Shown: positions 5,727-16,051 of the stretch, one piece after another | Position numbering within the stretch: the stretch's first letter is position 1 | Layout of the letters: each line of letters begins with the position of its first letter | Assembly: GCA_016935735.1 (NCBI GenBank) | Contig: JAFGQK010000059.1 | Span: 1 to 36,387 of the forward strand | Direction: 5' to 3' | Length of the DNA: 36,387 nt | Source: Spirochaetales bacterium | Lineage (GTDB): Bacteria; Spirochaetota; Spirochaetia; SZUA-6; JAFGRV01 | Position numbers and translations under genes: made by a program | The notes under the pieces: generated by a model | The model's input: the letters and a program-made list of their open reading frames with translations, nothing else | Database searches by the model: none | Told to the model about the DNA's origin: nothing

Positions 5727-6773
5727 TCAAAGCCCGTGTATATCCCTTATACGTCTTATCAACTCATCGACTTTTCCCGGTCTTTCCTCATATGCAGGAA
5801 AAGGATCATCGTACACCTTATTCCCGAGAAGCCCCTGCACGATATTCCCGATGCCGGGACCGAGAACGTTCAGGTTATAACCGCCTTCCAGGCAAAAGAT
5901 GATCCTTCCCCGGCAGAGTTCTTCCGCTGTATTTATGAGTGCACGGCATAAAACATTATACCCGGTAAGACTTAATTGAATCGCAGAAAGAGGATCCTCC
6001 CCATGGGCATCAAATCCCACGGAAACAAAGAGAAACCCGGGACGAAATCGCTTTAATGAAGGGACAATCACCTCTTCCAGTGCTTTCTGATACCCCTTAT
6101 CCCCTGTATATGCAGGAAACGGGATATTTATAGTGGTTCCTCTCCCCTCCCCTTCTCCTGTTTCATTCATCTTTCCCGAACCGGGATAATGGGGATACTG
6201 GTGGGTGGAAATATAAAGAACGGAAGGGTCACTATAAAAGATCCACTGGGTTCCATTGCCATGATGAACATCGATATCGACGATTGCCGCTTTTTCTATC
6301 CCGTGATGGAGAATGCATGACCGGACGCCAAGGGCAATGGTATTGAAAAGACAGAATCCCATAGCCCGATTCACTGTCGCATGATGCCCGGGAGGCCTTG
6401 CAAGAACGATACCGTTTGTAAGTTCGTTATCCGCTACTTTCCCTGCGAGGTCTATCATTCCCCCTGCTGCTCTTATCGCTGCCTCGTAAGAAAACTCATT
6501 CATATATGTATCGGGGTCTATATAAGAGAGACCGTTCTTCCCGGATTCTCTAAGCTGAGAAATAAGTTCCTTATCGTGGCAGGTAAGAAGTTCCGTTTCC
6601 GTTGCAGGTCGTGCCGTTACCTTTTCAGGTTCTGCGAAAAGCGACCCCTGTTCTGATTTACCAGGGTGATCTTCCAGGTAGGAAACAATCGCCTTAAGAC
6701 GTCCGGCATGCTCCGGGTGGCCGGGAAGGTTATGCTTTAAAAAAATTTCATCATATAGTAAACCGGTTTTCAT
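5727..6773 (-). CDS. Class II histone deacetylase-like / acetoin utilisation-type deacetylase
   Basis: The 348-residue protein is a full-length member of the zinc-dependent arginase/deacetylase fold. Key motifs are all present: ARPPGHHA (His130-His131), DIDVHHGNGT (metal ligands Asp168 and His170), GFDAH (Asp255) and LEGGY (catalytic Tyr299). Bacterial members remove acetyl groups from protein lysines (AcuC-like), from polyamines or from other acyl-amines; the substrate cannot be told here. It is the last gene of an operon with a TPR lipoprotein and an adenylate cyclase, starting 30 bp after the cyclase stop. The Shine-Dalgarno site before ATG 6773 is weak, so it may rely on upstream translation. 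Confidence 0.88.
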   Translation of the reverse strand: MKTGLLYDEIFLKHNLPGHPEHAGRLKAIVSYLEDHPGKSEQGSLFAEPEKVTARPATETELLTCHDKELISQLRESGKNGLSYIDPDTYMNEFSYEAAIRAAGGMIDLAGKVADNELTNGIVLARPPGHHATVNRAMGFCLFNTIALGVRSCILHHGIEKAAIVDIDVHHGNGTQWIFYSDPSVLYISTHQYPHYPGSGKMNETGEGEGRGTTINIPFPAYTGDKGYQKALEEVIVPSLKRFRPGFLFVSVGFDAHGEDPLSAIQLSLTGYNVLCRALINTAEELCRGRIIFCLEGGYNLNVLGPGIGNIVQGLLGNKVYDDPFPAYEERPGKVDELIRRIRDIHGL

Positions 6774-6803: not shown

Positions 6804-8945
6804 CTATTTTACCGTCATGGTGAATACCCCATCCCAATTAGCAGGCGGGGGATTACTCTTAAACAGTCCGATTCTACGGATAAAGACATTGCTTGTTCTG
6901 TCGTTATACTCTTCATTACACTTTGTAAATACCTTAAGTGCATCATTCCATTTCTTGTTTCTGTACTGTTCAAGACCTTCCTCGAAATATTTCTTTATTG
7001 TAAGAAGTTTCTTATCTGCTTTTTTCTTATCCTGAAGAATCTCGTATATTCTTACCGGGATACTTTTCCCTTTTACTGCTATAAGATCTATTTCCCTGCA
7101 TATATATAAATCCTTTACTTTTGTATAAACAGTTTCTGTCATAAGGGCTTTTGTATGATACACCTTATTCGCCCCTTCCAGGCGTGCGGCGAGATTCACC
7201 GTGTCCCCGATACTGGTAAAATCCATCCTTTCCTTTGCCCCGACACTCCCGAATACCACCGGGCCGGAATTGAGTCCGATCCCTATCTGCACTGCCTTTT
7301 GCTGTTTTTTCTCTCTTTTTTCCCTCTCTTCTGCCATGGCGGTACGAATTTCCATGCTTGCCTTACATGCGTTTTTTTCCTTATCCGGGCCGTCAAACGT
7401 ACCCATAATCTCGTCACCGACAAACTTATCAATATCACCATGATTGTTCATGATTATTGTCGATTGAATATCGAGGTACCGATTAAGGATACTCACCACC
7501 TTGGCGGGAGCCAATCCTTCACAGAGTGTAGTAAATCCCCGGATATCGGTAAACAGAAAACATAATTTTCTGATCTGGGAGACAGGCTTTCCTTCTTCCA
7601 CATGCGTAAAGGTAGAGGAAGAGATATAGGGAATTACCCCTTTTATGACATTTGTCATATCATTGATTTCGGTAGAGAGAGTTTTTATTTCATCCTTTGT
7701 TTTTACGATGTCCCTGTAGGTAAGAAGATCTGCAGAAACCTTCATCTTGCCTTTCAGCATTCTGGAGAGGGTTGTCCCGAGTTTGTTGACATTCATTCTC
7801 AAAAAAAGAAGCGGGAAAACGATTCTACTCCCGAAAATATAGACCAGGATAATCGCCAGGTACATAAAGATAAAGCTGAAAATAATCACTTTTACCTGGG
7901 TCCTGAAATATGCTTCAAAAACGGCATCTTCGGCATATACAGCAAGTGCGTATCCTATTATCCGGTTACTCAGAAAGACAGGTGAAATAAACTCGTATGT
8001 TTTCATTTTACTGTTGTACCGTGCCTGTGTCTCGGTAATGGATGCATAAGAAGGATCAAGCTCATTTCCGAGTATTTCCGTATCTGTACTGACTGCTATA
8101 ACATAATTCTCTGTTTTTCCCTGCTTTTTATAAAACGAGAGAGAATTAAACCTGAATTCGGATGAATTATTTCTTGCTTTCTCCATTGCAAGATAATCAT
8201 TGATTGCAATATCATCGTCTATGTTTGTCTTGATAACCATGGCGCTTCTGCCTGCAAGGGTATTCCCTGTATCGAAAACAGAAGCGAGTACGGTGTTGGA
8301 GAAATCCACCATGAGAATCGAACTTAAGCCCAGAAGAAGGATAAAAATAAGTCCAAGAAAAGATACAAGGAGTTTCTGTTGAATACCTACCTTTATCCCG
8401 ATTTTTACTGATGCATCTTCATCTTTTCTGGATAACCGGCGGAATTCAAGGTACTCCTGGTAATTCTCATTCACTTTCCTGAAGAATTTTACCAGGAATA
8501 CGGAAAATGATACATTATAGATAATAGAAAATCCGCCCAGGATATAGGTATAGAGAGAGAAAGTCTGGAAAAAACGGATATTGATTGCATATGCCTGGAT
8601 ATAAAGAAAAATCAACACAACCAGGCAGGCGGAAGAGATAATATTGAATAAAATCGGGAAAAACCTTTCTGCGGCACAGAGAAAAGCCATTTTCTTCCTG
8701 AAAAACACTGAAATTAACTTGAGTCCGCAAATTACCGGGATTAAAAAGGTGAGTATGGATGCGATTACCAGCATATGGAATTCCCCGCCTTTTATATAAA
8801 TGAGAAAGGGGAGGTCAAAGGATTTTACCTGAAATAATCCCGGCAGATAATAAGGCAAGACATACCAGGTAAGAACGCTCAGGGCATAAAAAATTTCCAC
8901 AATATGCAGAAAAATATGAATTTTGCTCTTTGTTGTATTATCCAA
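6804..8945 (-). CDS. Membrane-bound class III adenylate/guanylate cyclase
   Basis: The 713-residue protein has about five N-terminal membrane helices (roughly 10-33, 55-82, 98-120, 132-154, 192-213), an extracytoplasmic sensor region (about 214-350), a sixth helix (351-372), a HAMP-like linker, and a class III cyclase domain (about 455-620). Catalytic parts are intact: metal Asp467 in FTDIRGFT, Asp511 in DKFVGDEIM, and DFTSIGDTVNLAARLEG with the Asn and Arg of the transition-state pair. Lys507 and Thr577 suggest ATP as substrate, hence cAMP. A short TPR-like tail ends with NPPPANWDGVFTM. The start is TTG (8943-8945), with AGGAGAG upstream. The preceding TPR lipoprotein gene stops 11 bp before it, within the same Shine-Dalgarno region. 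Confidence 0.9.
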   Translation of the reverse strand: MDNTTKSKIHIFLHIVEIFYALSVLTWYVLPYYLPGLFQVKSFDLPFLIYIKGGEFHMLVIASILTFLIPVICGLKLISVFFRKKMAFLCAAERFFPILFNIISSACLVVLIFLYIQAYAINIRFFQTFSLYTYILGGFSIIYNVSFSVFLVKFFRKVNENYQEYLEFRRLSRKDEDASVKIGIKVGIQQKLLVSFLGLIFILLLGLSSILMVDFSNTVLASVFDTGNTLAGRSAMVIKTNIDDDIAINDYLAMEKARNNSSEFRFNSLSFYKKQGKTENYVIAVSTDTEILGNELDPSYASITETQARYNSKMKTYEFISPVFLSNRIIGYALAVYAEDAVFEAYFRTQVKVIIFSFIFMYLAIILVYIFGSRIVFPLLFLRMNVNKLGTTLSRMLKGKMKVSADLLTYRDIVKTKDEIKTLSTEINDMTNVIKGVIPYISSSTFTHVEEGKPVSQIRKLCFLFTDIRGFTTLCEGLAPAKVVSILNRYLDIQSTIIMNNHGDIDKFVGDEIMGTFDGPDKEKNACKASMEIRTAMAEEREKREKKQQKAVQIGIGLNSGPVVFGSVGAKERMDFTSIGDTVNLAARLEGANKVYHTKALMTETVYTKVKDLYICREIDLIAVKGKSIPVRIYEILQDKKKADKKLLTIKKYFEEGLEQYRNKKWNDALKVFTKCNEEYNDRTSNVFIRRIGLFKSNPPPANWDGVFTMTVK

Positions 8946-10599: not shown

Positions 10600-10797
10600 A
10601 TGAAAACAGATGAAAACAGCATGATCCTTTCAAGCCCGGATAATGAAGCAATCATTTATTATCATATTATAAATGCACAAAAATTAACCAGAGCACTCAC
10701 TGTCATGGAAGATGAACTGAAAAAGATTATGAGTTCTATCCGTGTGGTAAATAAACCAGAGCAATTCAGAATAATTATTCGTTATACCGTCCGCTAG
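10600..10797 (+). CDS. Doubtful small ORF
   Basis: This 65-codon frame gives a plausible helical peptide (YYHIINAQKLTRALTVMEDELKKIMSS), but it has no good Shine-Dalgarno site and no promoter I can see. Its stop overlaps the stop of the convergent response regulator inside a 6-bp hairpin (10789-10804). It resembles nothing I know. It may be a small regulatory protein or a chance frame. Confidence 0.22.
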   Translation: MKTDENSMILSSPDNEAIIYYHIINAQKLTRALTVMEDELKKIMSSIRVVNKPEQFRIIIRYTVR

Positions 10798-11489
10798 TGC
10801 GGACAGAATTTATAGCCGATTGTATGAACGGTAATAATATAACGGGGTTGGGACGGATTGTCTTCTATTTTTTGTCTTAATTTGGCAATATGCTGGTCAA
10901 GAGTGCGTGTAGTCCCTTCATAACGTACCCCCCAGATTTCATCAAGAATGGTAAAGCGGTCAAGGACTTTATCTTTATGCTTGATAAAAAACCGGAGCAG
11001 GTTCAATTCACGCAGGCTTATAAGAAAACTCTTTGTCCCTTTTTTCCCTGAATAGGTCTTTACATCAATAACGATATCCCCGAAGGTTATCTTTTCTTCT
11101 TTATCATCCTCCGGCATTACCGATGCACGACGGAAAGCTGCACGAATCCTGGCAAGTAATTCCTGGACCCCGAATGGCTTTACAATATAATCATCTGCGC
11201 CCAGCTCAAGGCCTACCACTTTATCAACCTCCTGGCCTTTTGCAGTTAACATAATAACAGGGGTGACAGGGTCATTTTTCCTGATTTCCCTGCATACATC
11301 ATACCCGCTTTTCCCGGGAATCATAATATCCAGAAGTATGAGACCGGGTTTGCAATCCGCATAGAGACAAAGGGCATTATTCCCGTCCCGGGCAGTAAAA
11401 ACACGATACCCTTCTCCTTCCAGAAGATCAACAAGGCCGGTAAGAATAGGGATATCATCCTCCACAATAAGTATTCGTTCTTTATTCAT
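10794..11489 (-). CDS. OmpR/PhoB-family response regulator
   Basis: The 231-residue protein has an N-terminal receiver domain (about 4-118) with the acidic pocket EDD at 10-12, phosphoacceptor Asp54 in ILLDIMIPG, and the conserved Lys in IVKPF. A C-terminal winged helix of the OmpR/PhoB class (about 133-230) follows, with LRELNLLRFFIKHKDKVLDR, the recognition stretch TRTLDQHIAKLRQKIE, and the closing TVHTIGYKF. It overlaps the upstream kinase gene by 8 bp, so the two are translationally coupled partners. The four 11-bp repeats upstream of the kinase (13543-13586) look like PhoB-type sites and are the best candidate target. The input signal is unknown; phosphate is possible but unproven. Confidence 0.92.
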   Translation of the reverse strand: MNKERILIVEDDIPILTGLVDLLEGEGYRVFTARDGNNALCLYADCKPGLILLDIMIPGKSGYDVCREIRKNDPVTPVIMLTAKGQEVDKVVGLELGADDYIVKPFGVQELLARIRAAFRRASVMPEDDKEEKITFGDIVIDVKTYSGKKGTKSFLISLRELNLLRFFIKHKDKVLDRFTILDEIWGVRYEGTTRTLDQHIAKLRQKIEDNPSQPRYIITVHTIGYKFCPH

Positions 11490-13377
11490 TTTTACCCCCG
11501 GTTTGCAGGACAGGAAGTGTCACCTGGAAGATACTTCCTCCCCCTTCTCGGGGGAAATACCGGATCGTTCCATGATGGGCGGTAATAATCTTTCTCGCTA
11601 TTGCAAGACCAAGGCCGCTGCCCCTGACCCTTGAGGTAAGGGAATCATCCACCCGGAAGAACTCCCTGAATATCTTTTTTGCATACTTTACCGGGATGCC
11701 GATTCCCCTGTCTTTAATATTGATTTGTATATAACCATCCGTTGTTATGAGTTCCAATGTAATCACCTTTTGCAGAGCCGAATACTTTTCTGCATTTGCA
11801 ATTAAATTAAGCAAAGCCTGCTTCAAAGATCCACTGTCCGCATTTACCATTACTTTATCTTTAGATGCAGAAAATTCAATAACAAACCCCTGCTGTTCAA
11901 GCCTCAGGCGCTGATCTTCCATCAATGTATGGCACAGGTGAATGATATCTGTTTTTTCCTTATGGTATTGTTTTTTATTCCGGCCTATTTTTGAAAAATC
12001 AAGAACATTATTGATAAGCCTGGACAGGCGTTCCGTTTCCGATACCATAAGAGTCAGGTACTTTTTCTGTTTGTCCCTATCCGGCAGACGTTCCTCTTTA
12101 AGCATTTCCGCAAACAATCGTATCGAAGTAAGGGGTGTTTTGAGTTCATGGGAAACATTCGATACAAAGGTTGTTTTTTGCTGTGCAAGGATAATCTCCG
12201 AATAAAAGGATTTCAGAATAAGAATACCCCCGGTAATGATTGAAATAATAAATAAAAATATTAAAACCCACATGACAAGGGCAATTGAACGTGCCCTGGA
12301 GGTAATAATATCCGGGTCGGTAAGATATGCAGCGACTTCCCACCGGGGAAGGATTTCACTGATTTCCCGGGAAACAATGGGAATCCTCCAGTTCCTGCTA
12401 TGATTTTCTTCCGGTAAAATGAGTGGAATTCCATCCTCATCAAGGATGGTGAGGATTCTCACACGGGTATAAACATACTGAATACATGTCAAAAGCCTGT
12501 CTTTATAAGCCTCTTCACGAATAATACACCCGGCTATATACCCGGAATCGATTTTTGTCCAGAAATAGAGAACAAGATCATTTTCCATTATACGGGGAAT
12601 GAGTCCGGAATTTTGCCCCTGTGTGATTTCAGAAAAGGAAAGCTGCCTGGATATAAAGACGGATTCGGGAGTTATTTGTTTTTTATCCTTTTTCTGAACC
12701 TGGACAATACTCCTGGGAATAAGCTCATTTCCTTCCTCTATCGCCTGTTCATATACCATATCCCTTACTTCCTCATCCTGCTCAAATTGAATCCGGGCAT
12801 TCTGATTCATGTATTCCTCGTTCAATATATCCGTTTCATTTGATAAAGAATCCGGCTCCCTGTTTTTTTCAACATCACTTGCATTGGACCATAACAGATT
12901 GTTTTTTATCTGTTGCTTATTTACGATGATCTCTTTATACGCAATAGCGATATTTTGATATACCGGGATGGAAACCTTATTGGTCAAAAAGCCATTATGC
13001 TGATGAAAAAACTCCTCATCCTTATTGTCCGGCCAGAGCAGGGTAAAATCTTCTGTAACAAGAAAGGGAATATCTATGAGCATATTCTTTTCTGTAAGTA
13101 ATACAAATTTCTCCCGGGAAGGTTTGTCCCCGGGAAGATTCTCACGAATGGCAGAACGAAACTCATCTTCCAATTCTCTATTTATTTTTTTAAGTTCATT
13201 ATTAATGACAGATATTGCATACATAACATCTGCCAAAAGGGTGTCTTCAAACTGCTTTTCTATATATACTTCTTCCCTGTCAACAGCACGAAGGGCAAAA
13301 TAGCCAAGAAACATACCCGGAATAAGAACAGAAAGGATAAAGAGGATTCCGGCTGTCGGTTTGATCGTTCCCTTCAT
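11482..13377 (-). CDS. PhoR-like sensor histidine kinase with large periplasmic sensor
   Basis: I use ATG 13377 (preceded by GAAGGAG) instead of a longer frame, since the product then begins with a membrane helix (about residues 8-29). A periplasmic region of about 335 residues follows, rich in Glu/Asn/Gln and of no family I recognise, then a second helix (about 365-389). With almost no linker and no HAMP comes HisKA with FVSNVSHELKTPLTS (phosphorylated His410), then HATPase with an N box (NLIANAEKYS), DRGIGIP and GSGLGLAIA. It phosphorylates the coupled response regulator. A perfect TATAAT lies upstream on the minus strand (13516-13511) without a good -35, next to the 11-bp repeats, which suggests activator-dependent autoregulation. 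Confidence 0.9.
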   Translation of the reverse strand: MKGTIKPTAGILFILSVLIPGMFLGYFALRAVDREEVYIEKQFEDTLLADVMYAISVINNELKKINRELEDEFRSAIRENLPGDKPSREKFVLLTEKNMLIDIPFLVTEDFTLLWPDNKDEEFFHQHNGFLTNKVSIPVYQNIAIAYKEIIVNKQQIKNNLLWSNASDVEKNREPDSLSNETDILNEEYMNQNARIQFEQDEEVRDMVYEQAIEEGNELIPRSIVQVQKKDKKQITPESVFISRQLSFSEITQGQNSGLIPRIMENDLVLYFWTKIDSGYIAGCIIREEAYKDRLLTCIQYVYTRVRILTILDEDGIPLILPEENHSRNWRIPIVSREISEILPRWEVAAYLTDPDIITSRARSIALVMWVLIFLFIISIITGGILILKSFYSEIILAQQKTTFVSNVSHELKTPLTSIRLFAEMLKEERLPDRDKQKKYLTLMVSETERLSRLINNVLDFSKIGRNKKQYHKEKTDIIHLCHTLMEDQRLRLEQQGFVIEFSASKDKVMVNADSGSLKQALLNLIANAEKYSALQKVITLELITTDGYIQINIKDRGIGIPVKYAKKIFREFFRVDDSLTSRVRGSGLGLAIARKIITAHHGTIRYFPREGGGSIFQVTLPVLQTGGKNE

Positions 13378-13510: not shown

Positions 13511-13516
13511 ATTATA
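13511..13516 (-). promoter_or_regulatory. Putative -10 box for the kinase/regulator operon
   Basis: TATAAT reads on the minus strand about 134 bp upstream of ATG 13377. The matching -35 position is poor (GTTTCT-like). The Pho-box-like repeats start 27 bp further upstream, so activation by a bound regulator would make sense. Confidence 0.35.
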
Positions 13517-13542
13517 AATTTAGCAAAAAAACAAGAAACAAT

Positions 13543-13586
13543 TGTCACATTGATGTAAAATGATTGTAAAAAAAATGTAAAATGGT
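13543..13586 (+). promoter_or_regulatory. Four 11-bp direct repeats resembling a Pho box
   Basis: TGTNA occurs at 13543 (TGTCA), 13554, 13565 and 13576 (each TGTAA), exactly 11 bp apart, with A/T-rich spacers. This is the layout of PhoB-class operators (tandem 11-bp units of TGTCA plus A/T). A -10-like CATAAT (13599-13604) follows 12 bp after the last unit on the plus strand, where an activator would replace the -35. The array sits between the kinase gene and the divergent M14 peptidase gene. Confidence 0.7.
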
Positions 13587-13684
13587 TACATAGGCCGGCA
13601 TAATTTATAAGCACCTGGATAGCTTGTTAATTGAATTATGGACGTAGCCAACGTTATGATATATATTTAAGAGAGAGGAGAATT

Positions 13685-15013
13685 ATGGCTGTCTCTTATT
13701 CCAGATTATTCTTTCTCCCCTGTTTATTAATCTTACTCGTTTTTTTCTCCTGTAGTCTTCAAAACGATGGGGATGATGATATAAGGATTCTGCCCGGGTA
13801 TATTGAAGAGGAGCTTGTTGCCTTTACCATACGCGCCCCCCTTATTACCGAACTCCGGATAACCGGTTATAGCTCAGGTCCCGTCTCTTACCCTATCTAT
13901 GCATTAAAAATGACAGATAATCCCCAGGAACAGGAAAATGAACCGGAAATCCAGTTTACCGGTGGAATTCATGGAAATGAGCAACTCTCCTGTATAATGG
14001 TCTTGAGAATGATTGAGTATATGATCGATCTTTACGAAGAGGACGATCCGGTTATCACCGGTATCATCAATAACAGTGAACTCCACTTTTCCCCGGTACT
14101 CAACCCATACGGGCTCTCCCGGGATGAACGTTACAATGCAAATTCAGTCGACCTGAACAGGAATTTCAGCTGGGCATGGGTTGATGGCTTGTTCCATGGA
14201 GATGCCCCGATTGACCAGCCTGAATCACAGGCTATCCGGGATGATGCCCTTGAGCATCCCTATGTTCTGGCTGTCCACGGGCATACCGGGGCTGCATGCA
14301 TTAATACCCTGTGGGATTATATCGGGACAACGAAATCCTCCGGCACCCCATCAACCTATACCATCGATGATTTTATAAGCCTTTACCTGCCCTCTTATCC
14401 ATTTATTTCAGAGGAAGCTTTACATTACAAGAATACCGTGAATGCTGCCGGGGATGACGGATTCTGGATGACAGAAGGATATGACTGGTACGCAGCTTTC
14501 GGTACTCTCCAGGACTGGATGTATGGGGTGCGGGGAGCTATAGCGTATACCCTGGAATACGACCTGTCATCCGGTCATACCTTGCTTTACGAAGAACTTT
14601 TCCAGGAGGTTTTTGATAATCACAAGGATGCGCTTATTGACCTGTTCATTGATGCCCGGAAGGGTATTTCCGGTATTATAACCGGGAGTGGGGAACTCCC
14701 GGTGGATGCAAAAGTTGAAGTGACCACTGTCACAAAAAGTGTCTATTGTGATCCTGTTACTTTCAGCCCTTTCTGTTTTACCGATCCCGATGCCGGGGAT
14801 TACCATCTCCCGGTCCAGCCGGGTACCTACAATCTCGAAATAACAGCAGATGGGTACCTGCCGGAAACTATTAATGGAATTGTAGTCCCGGAAGAGACAG
14901 GGATTGTCATCCGTAATATTCAGCTTACTCCGGGTAAGGGTGAAAAAAGTCCCCTGTTCATGCCGCCTGAAATTCCGGCAGATAACATCCCTCCCGATCT
15001 GAGGGAAGAATAA
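13685..15013 (+). CDS. M14-family zinc carboxypeptidase lipoprotein
   Basis: ATG 13685 is chosen over an earlier in-frame ATG (13631) because GAGAGGAG precedes it and the product then begins with a lipoprotein signal (LLILLVFFSC, Cys23). The body (about 50-320) is an M14 metallopeptidase: GGIHGNEQ supplies zinc ligands His96 and Glu99, AVHGHTGA supplies the third His (about 198), SVDLNRNFSW holds the substrate-binding Asn-Arg, and TLEYDL the catalytic Glu (about 291). A carboxypeptidase regulatory-like beta domain (about 330-420) closes it. It would be membrane-anchored outside the cytoplasm and trim peptides or peptidoglycan stems. The Pho-box-like array just upstream makes it a likely target of the divergent two-component system. 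Confidence 0.87.
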   Translation: MAVSYSRLFFLPCLLILLVFFSCSLQNDGDDDIRILPGYIEEELVAFTIRAPLITELRITGYSSGPVSYPIYALKMTDNPQEQENEPEIQFTGGIHGNEQLSCIMVLRMIEYMIDLYEEDDPVITGIINNSELHFSPVLNPYGLSRDERYNANSVDLNRNFSWAWVDGLFHGDAPIDQPESQAIRDDALEHPYVLAVHGHTGAACINTLWDYIGTTKSSGTPSTYTIDDFISLYLPSYPFISEEALHYKNTVNAAGDDGFWMTEGYDWYAAFGTLQDWMYGVRGAIAYTLEYDLSSGHTLLYEELFQEVFDNHKDALIDLFIDARKGISGIITGSGELPVDAKVEVTTVTKSVYCDPVTFSPFCFTDPDAGDYHLPVQPGTYNLEITADGYLPETINGIVVPEETGIVIRNIQLTPGKGEKSPLFMPPEIPADNIPPDLREE

Positions 15014-15063
15014 CAATCAGGGTTTTTCATTAATGAAAAACAATCAGGGTTTTTCATTAATGA
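15013..15063. repeat. 24-bp direct repeat, period 27, at convergent gene ends
   Basis: The same 24 bases occur at 15013-15036 and 15040-15063, separated by AAA. The right copy contains the last codons and stop of the minus-strand nucleotidyltransferase gene (INEKP-stop). The left copy repeats them just past the stop of the carboxypeptidase gene. It is a recent-looking tandem duplication. Confidence 0.85.
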
Positions 15064-16051
15064 TCGATTCTTTAAGGACACGGATAAGAAATGTATTTGC
15101 CCATTCCCTGTCCGGTTCTTCCCGGAGGGTTGATTGAACCGATTGTATTTTTTCATACCATAGTTCATACATTTCGAGTAATTCCCCGTAGCTTGCCTGC
15201 TGGTTCCTGATCTTAAGAATCTGCTTTCTTGCAGCACCCCGGATAGGATAAGAAATCCTGCTCGTGGAAAGCAACTGCCACCCTTCAAAAAGCAGCCGTA
15301 TAAGATGGTAAGCAAACTTTGTATCATATCCGACATTATGAAAACTTTCGGTATGCACACGCCAGCCGTAATTGTCATACTCATCCTTTATTTTTCTGTA
15401 AATCATGGCCACATCCATACCTTTATGAAAACTCTCACAATTCTGTTTTTTTCCTTTATAATATTTTAATATACTATTGAGTTTTCCTGCTTCCCCTTCA
15501 CTGATTTCCCGGTAATAGTTCCTGTTCATTATCCGTGTTACAATATCGCCTGCCGTCTTAATATCATTACCGGTATATTTTTCCGTTTCATGCACAAAAA
15601 TCTGTTTTTCCAGGTAATCGAGACCTTTCCGCAATGAAGTAAACCGTTCCTTTTTTACTACCAGCTTCTTTTTCTGTGAAAACGCATACCCGGTAAAGGT
15701 ATCCCGGACCACCCGGGATACGATCTTTGCATGATTATCCATGAGCTCCCGGGCTTCCGGTTCACACACAAGGATATTTTTCTTGTCTGCAAATAATACC
15801 TCGATAATATTCGGATTATTCCGTAAAAGAAGTTTTAAAAACCTGGATAAGGAAAATGATTTATCATCCACATCATTCTTATTGTTGCGGTTTTGTATAC
15901 CCGGTCTTTTCGTCGATTCATCCCGGTATTCAACAGGATGAAGACCAAGGAGTTCACTGGAATGTGGGATAAATACAGAGAGGAAATCAGTATCAGATTC
16001 TCTGGAAGCGAATCCGTAAAGATGTGAACCTGTTCGTACCTTTAATATCAA
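15044..16051 (-). CDS. Predicted nucleotidyltransferase (COG3541/YcgL-like)
   Basis: The 335-residue protein begins with the polymerase-beta-type nucleotidyltransferase signature GSHLYGFASRESDTDF, where Gly-Ser and the paired Asp bind nucleotide and metal. PNIIEVLFA follows and then a long helical C-terminal half with SQKKKLVVKKE. This matches the stand-alone predicted nucleotidyltransferase family COG3541, often found in phages and bacteria; the acceptor is unknown. The start is uncertain: TTG 16049-16051 with GGGAGA close by is used. AAGGAG lies about 20 nt upstream but has no standard start codon at the right distance. It follows the small gene at 16096-16404 by 44 bp and is likely co-transcribed. 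Its 3' end is duplicated. Confidence 0.75.
   Translation of the reverse strand: MILKVRTGSHLYGFASRESDTDFLSVFIPHSSELLGLHPVEYRDESTKRPGIQNRNNKNDVDDKSFSLSRFLKLLLRNNPNIIEVLFADKKNILVCEPEARELMDNHAKIVSRVVRDTFTGYAFSQKKKLVVKKERFTSLRKGLDYLEKQIFVHETEKYTGNDIKTAGDIVTRIMNRNYYREISEGEAGKLNSILKYYKGKKQNCESFHKGMDVAMIYRKIKDEYDNYGWRVHTESFHNVGYDTKFAYHLIRLLFEGWQLLSTSRISYPIRGAARKQILKIRNQQASYGELLEMYELWYEKIQSVQSTLREEPDREWANTFLIRVLKESIINEKP

Follow-up and report, generated by a model that had tools for sequence, protein, structure and literature searches.

A four-unit TGTNA array as a predicted autoregulatory operator of a WalR/PhoB-clade two-component system in Spirochaetales

Related operators and two-component systems

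The WalR/WalK system of Firmicutes (also named YycF/YycG or VicR/VicK) has the operator TGTWAH-N5-TGTWAH (PMC4168254). Tandem 11-bp units upstream of a -10 likewise form the Pho boxes of PhoB-class regulators (PMC4415409), and the envelope-linked two-component system CreBC/BlrAB is associated with the cre/blr tag TTCACnnnnnnTTCAC, whose two units are direct repeats of TTCAC with an 11-bp period (PMC3660660). Here we compare these systems with an array of four TGTNA units in a stretch of 36,387 nucleotides from a Spirochaetales bacterium (the window), where it lies between a divergent WalR/PhoB-type regulator-kinase operon and the gene of an M14 lipoprotein (Table 1). The genome also encodes FlaA, which 14 control genomes lack, making a spirochaetal origin very probable. 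One further kinase-regulator pair, the proteobacterial dedicated sortase system PdsS/PdsR, is tied to secreted vWA/VIT proteins.

Table 1. Features of the window discussed in the text
Feature	Coordinates	Strand	Remark
Operator, four half-sites at 11-bp spacing	13543..13580	-	Towards the kinase operon: TTACA(13580)-TTACA-TTACA-TGACA(13543)
-10 hexamer TAAATT at the conserved position	13517..13522	-	Follows the TGACA half-site at a distance of 20 bp
TATAAT, alternative -10	13511..13516	-	Abuts the conserved -10 position
CATAAT, -10 of the M14 gene in the earlier note	13599..13604	+	No counterpart on the M14-like side of other sites
Sensor histidine kinase, HisKA and HATPase_c	11482..13377	-	Likely start ATG 13377 behind AAGGAG
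OmpR/PhoB-class response regulator, Response_reg and Trans_reg_C	10794..11489	-	Presumed array binder
M14 zinc carboxypeptidase lipoprotein, divergent neighbour	13686..15013	+	ATG 13686; role as main target unsupported

On the plus strand the units TGTCA, TGTAA, TGTAA and TGTAA begin at 13543, 13554, 13565 and 13576, with a period of exactly 11 bp, and TGTCA is the unit closest to the kinase gene. These positions match exactly those given in an earlier note on this DNA, whose reading of a PhoB-class operator with doubled one-turn spacing is supported by the array geometry and by its conservation in relatives: the units are direct repeats that stand upstream of a -10, as in PhoB-class tandem operators. 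The orientation of the half-sites relative to the promoter is opposite to that of the E. coli CTGTCA Pho box.

The window regulator combines a receiver with a Trans_reg_C winged helix, as is typical of the OmpR/PhoB class, and its recognition helix reads RTLDQHIAKLRQKIE. Its best NCBIfam model is YycF/WalR (226.7 bits, cut-off 340); the PhoB (203.5 bits, cut-off 296.2) and CreB (161.2 bits, cut-off 273) models score lower, and for none of the three is the cut-off reached. The kinase scores best, although below cut-off, against WalK, and matches this model in the core region only; it does not reach the PhoR cut-off and has no PAS domain according to Pfam. In a structure model of the kinase (pLDDT 72), structural matches are limited to the kinase core. 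The closest full-length solved regulators are the actinobacterial RegX3 and MtrA, which differ from the window regulator in their recognition helices (KTLDVHV, RLVNVHV). The PdsR model is outside the best 25 models for the window regulator, and regulators of Neptuniibacter and Riflebacteria that accompany related operons (see below) score about 136 bits against a PdsR cut-off of 335.7. By model cut-offs, the window pair belongs to none of the compared equivalogs.

With WalRK the window system shares the TGTAAA half-site, the 11-bp period, an A at the seventh position and the best scores of both regulator and kinase core. The three distal units read TGTAAA-N5-TGTAAA and thus agree with the WalRK operator, whereas the proximal TGTCAC departs from it (motif of PMC4168254). 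The window array also differs in having four units, a distinct promoter-proximal TGACA and a rigid 20 bp to the -10; furthermore, its predicted targets are exported vWA, ARPP-1, DUF4139 and SIMPL proteins of unknown function. WalRK itself controls cell-wall hydrolases. The CreBC/BlrAB repeat TTCAC is close to TTACA, but that tag has two units and other targets, and the window units TTACA/TGACA do not match TTCACnnnnnnTTCAC. The Pho boxes share with the array the tandem 11-bp units, a PhoB-class regulator and the location upstream of a -10; in contrast, the regulon predicted here contains no pst genes, and a separate PhoBR is present.

Conservation of the array and its promoter spacing

In order to compare the array with chance expectation, its own genome (6.75 Mb) was scanned with patterns and reversed-pattern controls. 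Three TGTNA units at 11 bp gave eight matches, including two overlapping pairs, against none in the control; the four-unit pattern with up to three mismatches gave 12 against 6, and only two perfect four-unit arrays exist, that of the window and one on contig C396. When a TAnnnT hexamer 20 bp downstream (N20) was built into the pattern, three sites were found against none in the control, and the two outside the window precede a vWA gene (C396) and a DUF4140/DUF4139 gene (C22). The occurrence of the array is far beyond chance. Three-unit matches on C25 and C55 were set aside as another motif: they consist of the near-palindromic halves TGTTACA/TGTAACA, have no -10 at N20 and probably belong to a different regulator. 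The TGTTACA/TGTGACA arrays at C25:4691-4717 (L030) and C55:5285-5311 (L031) precede genes of secreted proteins that by eye resemble glycoside hydrolases.

Across the order the kinase-regulator pair is kept, and four-unit arrays precede orthologous kinase operons in several families. Upstream of the kinase, G002 (TGTCA-TGTAA-CGTAA-TGTAA) and G003 (TGTCA-TGTCA-TGTAA-TGTAA) retain the 11-11-11 spacing, so that the loss of this spacing in relatives, named in the earlier note as a finding that would speak against its reading, is not what we see. Four units spaced 11-10-10 occur in G004 and G017 and two to three units spaced by 10 in G007, while G005 retains the register with one unit degenerate or lost. 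In three genomes (G008, G024 and G025) the array stands one gene further upstream, before a gene that precedes the kinase in the same operon and encodes ARPP-1, an assignment that comes from Pfam for G008 and from similarity for the other two. G010, G012 and G013 have a kinase orthologue with no pattern-matching array adjoining it. No site was found in the eight genomes of two families (f3 and f6) that have no kinase orthologue. Like the missing arrays in G010, G012 and G013, the assembly of G001 counts against this association: it contains a site and lacks a kinase orthologue. This assembly is 87% complete, and its M14 contig ends at the expected operon position.

When the pattern TGTCA-N5/6-TGTNA-N5/6-TGTAA was run against 26 genomes of the order, it matched 17 sites against one in the control, and the constancy of the TGTCA unit among them is partly built in because the pattern required it. 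Adding the -10 at N20 to the pattern gave 18 sites against none. Among 18 sites retrieved with no -10 in the search pattern, TAnnnT lies exactly 20 bp past TGACA in 14, and two more carry CATAAT or CATATT there, so that 16 of 18 have a -10-like hexamer at this position. At any other offset from 8 to 39, TAnnnT occurs in at most two sites, and the best of 20,000 shuffles reached six. No conserved -10 peak is present on the M14-like side of this site set. The genomes compared are mostly draft assemblies and all evidence is comparative; the upstream reads of kinase orthologues, the N20 offset counts and the cross-phylum matrix scan described below are independent of the feature they test.

In the window itself, the earlier note had assigned a perfect -10 to the kinase promoter. 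The hexamer in question, TATAAT, is indeed present and is by sequence the best -10 at this promoter, but the conserved position is held by the adjacent TAAATT. TATAAT sits 6 bp past that position, which counts against the explanation that we favour.

Several other sites in the order look like chance matches (G008:C35, G008:C82 on the acetate kinase side, G018:C8 and G003:C120:72836). The longest array seen, about six TTTTACATCTA-like 11-bp repeats, lies before a gene for a 430-aa lipoprotein at G007:C19:41902 (L115). Other spirochaete families carry sites of the form TTACA-N6-TTACA-N6-TAACA-N20-TAnnnT (L208-L213), in which TAACA replaces TGACA. One of these sites (L213, G047) precedes a response regulator gene, and they may represent the box of a related regulator.

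Regulon and occurrence in other phyla

Nearly all of the 17 sites in the order have, on their TGTCA side, a nearby gene whose product is exported. These products are vWA proteins in G000, G001, G002 and twice in G003, where one is followed by a VIT-vWA gene; further sites face genes for DUF4140/DUF4139 (G000), ARPP-1 (G017, G024), SIMPL (G002) and DUF4349 (G003) proteins. Divergent from the SIMPL gene and its array, G002:C125 encodes a protein with DUF1707 and LiaF-like C-terminal domains, of the cell-wall stress type (L088:3760-4398).

Kinase relatives outside the order were retrieved via two protein motifs. Operons composed of vWA, kinase and regulator genes exist in Neptuniibacter, Amphritea, Nitrospina, Riflebacteria, Planctomycetaceae, Hydrogenedentes and others, and a Verrucomicrobia MAG carries a related operon in the order further gene, vWA, kinase, regulator. 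Arrays precede these vWA-kinase-regulator operons in Gammaproteobacteria, Nitrospina, Riflebacteria and Planctomycetes, as well as the related operon of Verrucomicrobia. When a matrix was built from the spirochaete arrays only, the -10 being left out, its score upstream of most cross-phylum operons exceeded all 200 shuffles on the expected strand. Over 75 loci the threshold of 12, which was set after the scores had been seen, was reached on 16 forward strands and one reverse strand. TAnnnT is present at N20 in 8 of the 13 retained cross-phylum sites and in no more than two at any other offset.

The regulators of the array-bearing operons share the recognition helix RTLDQH across phyla, and an LDQH helix goes along with an array in 8 of 11 loci, compared with 3 of 38 for other regulators (Fisher p 5e-5). 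Motif and recognition helix travel together, which makes the local regulator the likely binder. That some other OmpR-class regulator of the genome occupies the sites is a very improbable reading: the genome does encode many two-component kinases, and TGTAA-type half-sites are common to WalR-, PhoP- and MtrA-class regulators, but in most of the relatives that carry this very operon, as in several phyla, the array stands at its promoter, together with one recognition-helix signature.

Predicted mechanism and alternative readings

The array is, with high probability, an autoregulatory class-II activator operator of a WalR/PhoB-clade two-component system that controls a small exported-protein regulon, a reading that draws on sequence comparison. 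Two dimers of the phosphorylated regulator would bind the four half-sites in head-to-tail arrangement and occupy one helix face just upstream of the -10 at N20 from TGACA. Array-bearing promoters have poor -35s. The bound regulator would substitute for a good -35 and recruit RNA polymerase to the kinase-regulator operon, creating positive feedback. In the same cell, a small exported-protein regulon may be turned on from the same type of site; it would comprise vWA and DUF4140/DUF4139 proteins here, and vWA, ARPP-1, SIMPL and DUF4349 proteins in relatives. The identity of the binding protein and the sign of the regulation, activation instead of repression, are what we infer from these comparisons. 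The kinase has a large extracytoplasmic part flanked by two transmembrane stretches, so the signal probably lies outside the cytoplasm; this domain may sense an envelope-related signal.

A bidirectional array, which would activate the M14 carboxypeptidase gene together with the kinase operon as the earlier note had proposed, is an unlikely reading, albeit the best of the alternatives. Its share concerning the own operon stands, given the conserved arrays and the N20 -10, while the share concerning M14 is opposed by the orientation. Array orientation and the -10 at N20 indicate that the site points at the kinase operon and not at M14. M14 is the divergent neighbour, and CATAAT was placed 12 bp after the last unit, a figure that is right when counted from the end of the 11-bp period at 13586 and becomes 18 bp when counted from the end of TGTAA. 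A clear M14 orthologue (57% identical) is found only in the congener, where the same arrangement is possible; since the gene there abuts a contig end, the upstream regions can be compared over about 36 bp only. Against this reading, the site set has no conserved -10 on the M14-like side, M14 and the operon lie apart in the other genera examined, and other candidate -10s (TATGAT/TATATT near 13655-13667) lie nearer to the M14 start. M14 is therefore probably not the main target; it may be a secondary one. Next to M14, positions 15044-16051 of the window encode a RlaP-type nucleotidyltransferase of the RNA repair DNA polymerase beta family (E 6e-20). Elsewhere in the window, an adenylate/guanylate cyclase-domain protein (6804-8945) is encoded beside a histone-deacetylase-family protein (5727-6773).

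It is still less probable that the regulator turns these promoters off when it occupies its sites upstream of the -10. Some genes are repressed by WalR-type regulators, and sites alone do not give the sign; yet the array lies upstream of the -10 and does not overlap it, and poor -35s with rigid spacing are as expected for class-II activators. Sites upstream of the -35 tend to go with positively regulated genes (PMC4168254).

The phosphate signal considered in the earlier note finds no support in the own genome. One contig (C208) carries pstS, pstC, pstA, pstB, phoU, phoB and phoR consecutively, and a second pst locus is present on C321; at both, the pst genes, as opposed to phoU, phoB and phoR, were named by eye from sequence. 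The C208 regulator matches PhoB best (240 bits) and the C208 kinase PnpS/PhoR, and the recognition helix of this PhoB, RSVDVLIFGLR, is unlike that of the window regulator. Not so much as a pair of TGTNA units spaced 10-11 bp occurs in either pst region, and none of the array sites found has a pst or phosphatase gene. At C321:4505-9423 (L082) the pst operon has two pstB-like ATPase genes and phoU, with no adjoining phoBR. Despite the geometry of 11-bp TGTNA direct repeats that Pho boxes share (PMC4415409) and the match of the window regulator to PhoB (203 bits), it is scarcely credible that this pair is the organism's PhoB/PhoR, with phosphate as its signal and the array as a true Pho box, given this separate pstSCAB-phoU-phoBR locus without arrays, a pair that best matches WalR/WalK, and a kinase that is neither PAS-bearing nor a PhoR by cut-off.

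Beyond the autoregulatory operator, we lean towards a cross-phylum system of envelope surveillance, in which a kinase with an extracytoplasmic sensor and an RTLDQH regulator would act through (TTACA)3-TGACA-N20-TAnnnT on their own operon and on genes for exported vWA, VIT-vWA, ARPP-1, DUF4139 and SIMPL proteins. These genes would form one operon or, as in these spirochaetes, be scattered over the chromosome. Literature searches on ARPP-1 or vWA proteins with kinases, on vWA-kinase operons and on spirochaete Pho boxes found no prior description of the system; devices of this kind are known, and neither the system nor its regulon nor the N20 promoter rule seems to have been described in the literature searched.

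Altogether, the comparison provides a promoter code that can be tested, for a two-component system encoded beside exported vWA proteins in several phyla. A single predicted regulon would link DUF4139, ARPP-1, SIMPL, DUF4349 and vWA, families of unknown function. The locus also illustrates that PhoB-like sequence and spacing do not by themselves imply control by phosphate.
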